In this document: positions 111 through 33,974 of the stretch, piece after piece
Layout of the letters: every line of letters begins with the position of its first letter
Position numbering within the stretch: position 1 is the first letter of the stretch
Source: Deltaproteobacteria bacterium
Lineage (GTDB): Bacteria; Myxococcota; Myxococcia; Myxococcales; SZAS-1
NCBI GenBank assembly: GCA_018266075.1
Contig: JAFEBB010000073.1
Coordinates: 1 to 37,364 of the forward strand
Length of the DNA: 37,364 bases
Direction of reading: 5' to 3'
Translations under genes and position numbers: made by a program
The notes under the pieces: model-generated
What the model saw: only the letters and a program-made list of their open reading frames with translations
Database searches by the model: none
Told to the model about the DNA's origin: nothing

Positions 111-162
111 GGCACGACTCCTGGGTCGTGTTCCGCGGCTGGGCACTGGGCTTCGCCGCGGT

Positions 163-181
163 GTTGAGCGAAATGCTCAAC
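163..181. promoter_or_regulatory. Perfect inverted repeat GTTGAGC-N5-GCTCAAC
   Basis: Seven-base arms are separated by GAAAT. It lies about 50 bases upstream of the leftward start at 110 and no coding sequence overlaps it. It may be a repressor operator or a small RNA hairpin; there is no T tract, so a terminator is unlikely. Confidence 0.35.
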
Positions 182-295
182 GGACCAGGTCCAAAGCAGG
201 CGTCGTGCCACCCAGCCGGCACCGCCGAAGTCGCCTGAAACCGTTATGGGATTGGAAGTGCCCGCCCTGGCGAGCATGCCTTCTTCGCGGCTCCG

Positions 296-33041: not shown

Positions 33042-33119
33042 CGGAGATTGTCCGGCCTGCCTCAGCCGCGGCGAGGGCACCTCGCCGGCCGAGGTGCCCT
33101 CATGCCTGATCCATCCCGC

Positions 33120-33698
33120 TCAGCTCGCGGCCTTGGTCGCCGGCTCCATCGCGTCGTTGGCGGCCGGGGTGGCTCCGAGTTGCACCGGCTGCGCGGGCGC
33201 GCCGCTCGCGGTCGTCGCGGTCTCGTTGCCGTCCACGCTCACCGCCACCGGCCCGGCCTGGATGGCCTCCTTCTGCCGGCGGCCCATGGTGTGGCGCAGC
33301 GCGCGGGTCTGGTTCGCGCGCTCGCGGGCGGCCGTCTTCTCCTTGACCGTGAGCTGCTTCTTCGGCTTCACCGGCGGCACGCCGGCCTGGCCGAGCTTCA
33401 CCGCGTCCGGCCCGAAGTGCGCCTCGAGCCCGGTGATCGCCGCCTTCACGAACGCCTTGGCCTCCGGCTCCACGGCGTTGCGCTCGGCCACCGCCTGGGT
33501 CGCCTCGGCCTGCCGCTGCTCGGCGCGGTCGTAGCGCTCGAGGAACTGACCGGCGCGCGCCGCGAGCTTCTCGCCGGTCATCTCCACGCCCGCGACCTTC
33601 ACCGTCTCCTTCGCCCCGAGCTCGCCGGCCACCTTGTCCTTCAAGGTCTTCAGCACCGACTCCACCGGTGCGCCCCGGATCTTCGTTCTCGATGCCAT
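33120..33698 (-). CDS. Unknown basic protein with a structured leader, 192 residues
   Basis: Start is the ATG at 33698 (MASRTKIRGAPVESVLKTLK); the longer open frame upstream has no support and runs through the folded leader. The product is helical and Ala/Lys-rich. Its central part is EKLAARAGQFLERYDRAE, and a basic tail RANQTRALRHTMGRRQKEAI precedes a Ala/Thr/Pro-rich C-terminus. I recall unannotated proteins of this style in myxobacteria, ending in a KATRxTMGxxQ-type basic segment, but no function. The gene at 1-110 may be a relative. The leader at 33713-33766 can fold into a three-way junction. Confidence 0.65.
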   Translation of the reverse strand: MASRTKIRGAPVESVLKTLKDKVAGELGAKETVKVAGVEMTGEKLAARAGQFLERYDRAEQRQAEATQAVAERNAVEPEAKAFVKAAITGLEAHFGPDAVKLGQAGVPPVKPKKQLTVKEKTAARERANQTRALRHTMGRRQKEAIQAGPVAVSVDGNETATTASGAPAQPVQLGATPAANDAMEPATKAAS

Positions 33699-33712
33699 GT
33701 GGCACCCCCGAA

Positions 33713-33766
33713 TCGTCTGCGCGTCGCCGCCCCATGCGGCGACTCCGCGTCGCGCGGAGCAGACGA
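33713..33766 (-). ncRNA. Candidate cis-regulatory RNA: perfect three-way junction in a 5' leader
   Basis: In the leftward RNA, P1 is TCGTCTGC with GCAGACGA (8 bp), P2 is TCCGCG-CGA-CGCGGA (6 bp) and P3 is GTCGCCG-CATGGGG-CGGCGAC (7 bp). All 21 pairs are Watson-Crick in 54 bases, with only GC unpaired at the junction. It ends 14 bases before the ATG at 33698, right before the GGGGGTGCC ribosome region. It does not match a riboswitch I know. It could be a leader regulator or a mobile palindromic repeat. The rest of 33767-33974 shows no gene. Confidence 0.55.
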
Positions 33767-33974
33767 GGGTTCGCTGGTGCACTCGGCGGGCCAACGCGCA
33801 AGTCGACAGATCTCGGAGGAGCGCGCTGCGGCGGGTGTGTCTCGCGGCCCGCGGGTGTGGCTTGCGGCGTTCGCGCCGGCTCCAACACGGACCCTCTCCG
33901 TGGTCGCGTCGAATGACGGATCGATGCGTCTCGGCGACCTGTCGGAGCTCGAAACGGCCGTGCGGCCTCACGCC

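Follow-up and report, generated by a model that had tools for sequence, protein, structure and literature searches.

A three-way-junction RNA as the predicted 5′-terminal leader of a gene in an apparently undescribed multicopy family of Myxococcota

Positions 33713 to 33766 of the window (the whole stretch of 37,364 nucleotides that was analyzed, a contig from a member of the Myxococcota) can fold into three nested helices immediately ahead of a gene. This raises the question whether the fold is an accident of base composition, a copy of a known or mobile element, or a control element of the gene that follows.

The junction, the gene and its promoter all lie on the minus strand. A closing helix of 8 bp, P1 (UCGUCUGC/GCAGACGA; 5′ strand 33759-33766, pairing with 33713-33720), encloses two hairpins: P2 at 33744-33758, with 6 bp and a CGA loop (UCCGCG-CGA-CGCGGA), and P3 at 33723-33743, the core hairpin, with 8 bp (GUCGCCGC-AUGGG-GCGGCGAC). 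A preliminary description of this DNA had given 8, 6 and 7 pairs; the lengths of P1 and P2 hold, while P3 really has 8. Its statement that linkers are nearly absent is accurate, as the only one is a GC at 33721-33722, and so is the distance of 14 nt between the end of the junction and the ATG at 33698-33696.

Chance nesting, already thought unlikely in that description, was addressed in two ways. The region 33700-33780, folded as the plus strand, has a minimum free energy of −48.1 kcal/mol (z −4.0), and none of 200 shuffled sequences was equally stable. With wider flanks the minus strand scores z −2.6, weaker than the value for 33700-33780, and the predicted transcript leader of the gene z −2.5. 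Moreover, a scan for junctions of perfect helices (P1 of at least 7 bp, P2 and P3 of at least 6 bp, at least 20 pairs in total, linkers of at most 3 nt) returned 33713-33766 as its single match in the 37-kb window and nothing in 25 shuffles. Shuffle folding and junction scan together rule out a chance origin: the three-way junction at 33713-33766 is real.

The 7.84-Mb genome holds no second copy of the 91-bp junction sequence, the remaining matches being GC-rich scraps, and no Rfam 15 family matches the junction at or above its gathering cut-off; a permissive Rfam scan of 33600-33900 yielded one sub-threshold match of 14.6 bits, outside the junction. Without a second genomic copy and without an Rfam match, the junction is neither a dispersed repeat nor a member of an Rfam family, and the earlier remark that it fits no known riboswitch class is borne out.

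The gene behind the leader (33120-33698) encodes a protein of 192 amino acids. A hairpin of 12 bp, a possible terminator lacking a T run, lies just after the stop codon at 33073-33101. The AlphaFold model (mean pLDDT 84) consists of a helix, a β-hairpin, a helix of 54 residues, shorter helices, a basic C-terminal region and a disordered tail. No sequence match was found in Pfam, NCBIfam, PHROGs or PDB sequences, which agrees with the initial view of a structured leader before an unknown gene, and no convincing fold match was found among PDB or viral folds. The family is strongly multicopy: the gene's own genome has 14 matches, including fragmentary or weak ones, and the genomes of relatives have at least tens. 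Across the phylum it occurs in 5 of 195 genomes, around one relative in 6 of 145, and the named matches are metagenome-assembled genomes of Myxococcales; no members were found in phages, plasmids or viral contigs. No orthologue of the window gene was found either, only paralogues at roughly 20-35% identity, which is also about the identity of the paralogues to each other. In the family alignment T131 is invariant and G37, L102, F105, G106, R132, R135, T137 and G139 are nearly so, and a basic segment, TR..RGTMG..QK, is conserved. The C-terminal tails are disordered, but their last residues agree among the members of a genome group: NGxxH in G000, and SGK, TGK or GGK in G008, G014 and G019. These shared endings suggest a possible sorting or partner signal. 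Many contigs break off inside or beside family members (L070, L071, L090, L095, L097, L099 and the start of the window), which would follow from repeats or near-identical copies disrupting the assembly. Rfam, the protein libraries and the papers searched gave no account of this family, of its leaders or of the arrays treated below, and this is apparently a large, undescribed multicopy family of Myxococcota, certain soil bacteria.

Upstream of the junction, TTGGCCCGCCGAGTGC (33794-33779) carries GG at −24 and GC at −12 with the fixed spacing of a σ54-type promoter, and the genome encodes rpoN (σ54). A transcription start 12 nt downstream of the C in the −12 GC would fall at 33767, as a prediction only. 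P1 then begins one base further on, at +2, and the junction would extend to +55. With this start, the junction would fall at the 5′ extreme of the transcript and is the predicted 5′-terminal leader of the mRNA. The probable Shine-Dalgarno sequence, GGGGG at 33705-33709, lies downstream of the junction and takes no part in its pairing. It is partly covered by another, weak hairpin (GGUGCC-ACAU-GGCAUC), whose loop contains the start codon. A translation switch as it was originally proposed is thus unsupported, because the junction is located upstream of the Shine-Dalgarno sequence and leaves it unpaired.

The same arrangement recurs in the genome. In its family copies a σ54 box is directly followed by two tandem hairpins, a Shine-Dalgarno stretch and the ATG. 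Nine of the ten own-genome copies examined have a σ54 box at the right distance, compared with 3.3% of control windows, and six have its strict form, which was absent from all 2328 controls. Relative to the predicted start, a hairpin begins within −2 to +4 in eight other own-genome leaders (combined p about 3e-4, for copies that are not fully independent), just as P1 begins at +2. Folding z-scores of the own-genome family leaders range from −1.0 to −3.7. Searching the whole genome with the σ54 pattern TGGCAC-N5-CTGCT gave 21 sites, against two when the spacing was wrong. Of the 21, five lie before family members and one more, on contig C68, lies before a shortened member. At the five family sites the leader z-score lies between −1.6 and −4.2, whereas most other σ54-like sites score around 0, with extremes of −1.5 and +1.7. 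As these other sites lack folded leaders, the fold is a trait of the family and not of σ54 messages in general. In distant relatives (L112-L147, L152-L179) the leader hairpin is kept without a σ54 box, and a different, AT-rich promoter-like stretch lies ahead of it.

A second family member, MSTRTAKTLDQKLNQLIHGVQTALTSGQSFIIDGQS..., is cut by the contig end (positions 110-1, minus strand). It has a σ54 box, TGGCACGACGCCTGC, at 196-210 (minus strand), a predicted leader at 111-184 (minus strand) with a double hairpin (GTTGAGC-ATTTC-GCTCAAC and CCGCGGC...GCCGCGG), palindromes and, upstream, tandem arrays with a period of 42 bp (526-621 and 625-740). A leader near-identical to this one is found on contig C68 (L202; G000:C68:39375-39648), before a gene whose protein has lost its middle and kept a tail ending in NGASH. 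The C68 leader folds less well (z −0.7).

Conservation among the leaders is concentrated in a loop. A pentaloop of the form C-A(U/C)NNN-G, of which the P3 loop AUGGG is a single instance, is present in 18 of 94 family leaders compared with 2.1% of control windows, and the stricter A(U/C)G form in 13 of 93 compared with 1.3 expected. Hairpins of 5 bp in general are no commoner in the leaders than in the background, which is itself GC-rich throughout. In the genomes of two relatives the aligned leaders share one fold: outer helix, internal loops and, as the tip, the hairpin GC-AYGGU-GC. Both sides have changed at 7 of 15 pairs (10 sequences) and at 9 of 13 pairs (16 sequences), counts that are biased towards structure because the regions used, A4 and A5, were picked by eye after their complementarity had been seen. 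A covariance model of the relatives' group, R1, recovers its own training group, and its best match in the window, at 33709-33751, overlaps P3 and is weak (15.1 bits, E 2.6). A single general covariance model for all leaders was set aside on this weak match. We read the leaders as a single kind whose sequence is only loosely constrained.

Of the parts of the junction leader, P1 has the weakest support. Its pairing lies inside the predicted transcript in this copy only. Paralogues do have P1-like complementarity, and in nine leaders the pairing of matched arms exceeds that of mismatched arms (p 0.003 if the window gene is included, 0.015 if it is left out). Because the 5′ arm of the paralogues is mostly located upstream of the predicted start, a conserved P1 was set aside and the helix is treated as specific to the window copy.

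Further upstream, a tandem array is found within about 1.1 kb of 61 of the 94 members, and its period is exactly 21, 42, 63, 84, 105 or 126 bp in 50 of the 61 arrays. The upstream regions show autocorrelation peaks at lags of 21, 42 and 63 (0.41, 0.445 and 0.395, over a base of about 0.285), and their density of arrays with a period that is a multiple of 21 bp is 13- to 20-fold that of the rest of the loci. The units have a different sequence at each locus, and many contain short palindromes. Examples lie 130-900 bp upstream of family genes at L014, L021, L035, L088, L010 and many other loci; a further one is the window's 526-740 array. The window gene itself has no more than two copies of a 20-bp direct repeat (33831-33868) upstream of its promoter, which correspond in short form to the 21-bp arrays seen in paralogues. 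Perfect or near-perfect palindromes of 17-21 bp were seen at L014, L026, L029, L032, L035 and L069 and in the window at about 280-420. They occur in one to three copies upstream of the σ54 box, in several own-genome copies between array and promoter, and their sequence differs between loci; they are possible activator sites. Given that the family copies each have a folded leader, often with a 21-base array upstream, the fold probably acts as a control element for this family.

What kind of control element this would be can be weighed against several other accounts. A mobile palindromic element, which the preliminary description had considered, for example of the REP, BIME or MITE type, or another kind of dispersed repeat would explain the perfectly palindromic arms, but it should exist in many copies at unrelated sites. 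The genome has no second copy, and the folded leaders keep a fixed position before family genes and their predicted starts, so that this account is the least credible of all. Scarcely more credible is a metabolite-sensing riboswitch, which a compact three-way junction beside a start codon resembles in outline: riboswitches keep their junction core conserved, whereas the family leaders vary from copy to copy without such a core, and no Rfam match was found. An inverted repeat acting at the DNA level, as a double-stranded site or a cruciform at the promoter and with no role in RNA, is improbable to a lesser degree. The P1-like complementarity of several paralogues joins the −12 to +2 region to the start region, and the advantage of matched arms fits such a site; its basis is nine leaders only, and the hairpins are found past the start, in the transcribed part.

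Two accounts that place the function in the RNA carry more weight, and each is doubtful to about the same extent when taken alone. In one, which the preliminary description had also raised, the leader is autoregulatory: the basic family protein would bind the pentaloop hairpins of its own and sister mRNAs and repress their translation. The loop letters are more conserved than the stem letters, the hairpin is retained in relatives without the σ54 box, and the protein has its conserved basic segment; on the other hand, no known RNA-binding fold was found in the protein, the window junction leaves the Shine-Dalgarno sequence uncovered, and a conserved loop could suit any factor. In the other, the leader is purely a 5′-end stabilizer, for which any strong 5′-terminal stem suffices and the details of loop and junction are irrelevant. 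The position of the hairpins and of P1 at the predicted starts is what such a stabilizer would require, but the loop bias and the internal-loop architecture shared in other genomes need more than a stem.

The explanation that we prefer, with a probability of about 0.6, is a structured 5′-terminal leader of a monocistronic, probably σ54-driven mRNA that acts in cis after transcription. As far as computation goes, it is firm that the structure belongs to a gene family as a folded leader located in cis at the predicted 5′ end, and it is very probably transcribed and cis-acting; judged from the sequence, a 5′-UTR element affecting mRNA stability or translation is the most likely form. How the folded 5′ end acts post-transcriptionally we infer, at somewhat less than even odds, as a combination of 5′-end protection with a loop-recognizing factor. 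A stable stem 0-4 nt from the 5′ end would block 5′-end-dependent decay of the RppH/RNase E type and give a long-lived message, and the conserved A-Y pentaloop would be contacted by an RNA-binding factor acting in trans, which might itself be a family member and would adjust stability or translation. The two hairpins of the window copy would be enclosed by the extra helix P1 and so turned into a three-way junction.

Three known kinds of system come closest. 5′-terminal stem-loops of the ompA type stabilize bacterial mRNAs, and the present leaders share with them a strong stem at the 5′ end, a monocistronic mRNA and a free ribosome site downstream; they differ in having tandem hairpins or a three-way junction, a biased pentaloop, and an occurrence common to a multicopy family. 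The likeness lies in predicted start and fold, and for the present leaders an effect on decay is hypothetical. Ribosomal proteins and phage coat proteins repress translation through leaders or operators in their own mRNAs, where, apparently as here, a conserved loop on a variable stem precedes the gene of a basic protein. Here, in contrast, there is no Rfam match, the gene is neither ribosomal nor coat, and the binding is putative. σ54 regulons have palindromic upstream activator sites, and the present loci resemble them in their many −24/−12 boxes preceded by palindromes, in a genome with rpoN. They differ in that the palindromes are locus-specific, that there are arrays of 21-bp period and that folded leaders are confined to family genes.

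An isolated RNA fold is thereby linked with a gene family that is large, apparently undescribed and conserved in its non-coding architecture. The leader itself is a structured 5′-UTR, a known kind; the module as a whole may be new. Tentatively, it could be pictured as a dispersed genetic module of Myxococcota, with from ten to several tens of units in a genome. Each unit would comprise a 21-bp-phased repeat array (locus-specific and often palindromic), a promoter (σ54 in this lineage), a 5′-terminal hairpin leader with an A-Y pentaloop and a fast-diverging protein without a fold match; protein, array and leader would recognize one another as a set. Should a common factor bind the leaders, a single genome would supply about ten natural variants from which to derive the recognition rule. 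The 21-bp-phased arrays raise a second testable question, namely what binds them and why every copy differs.
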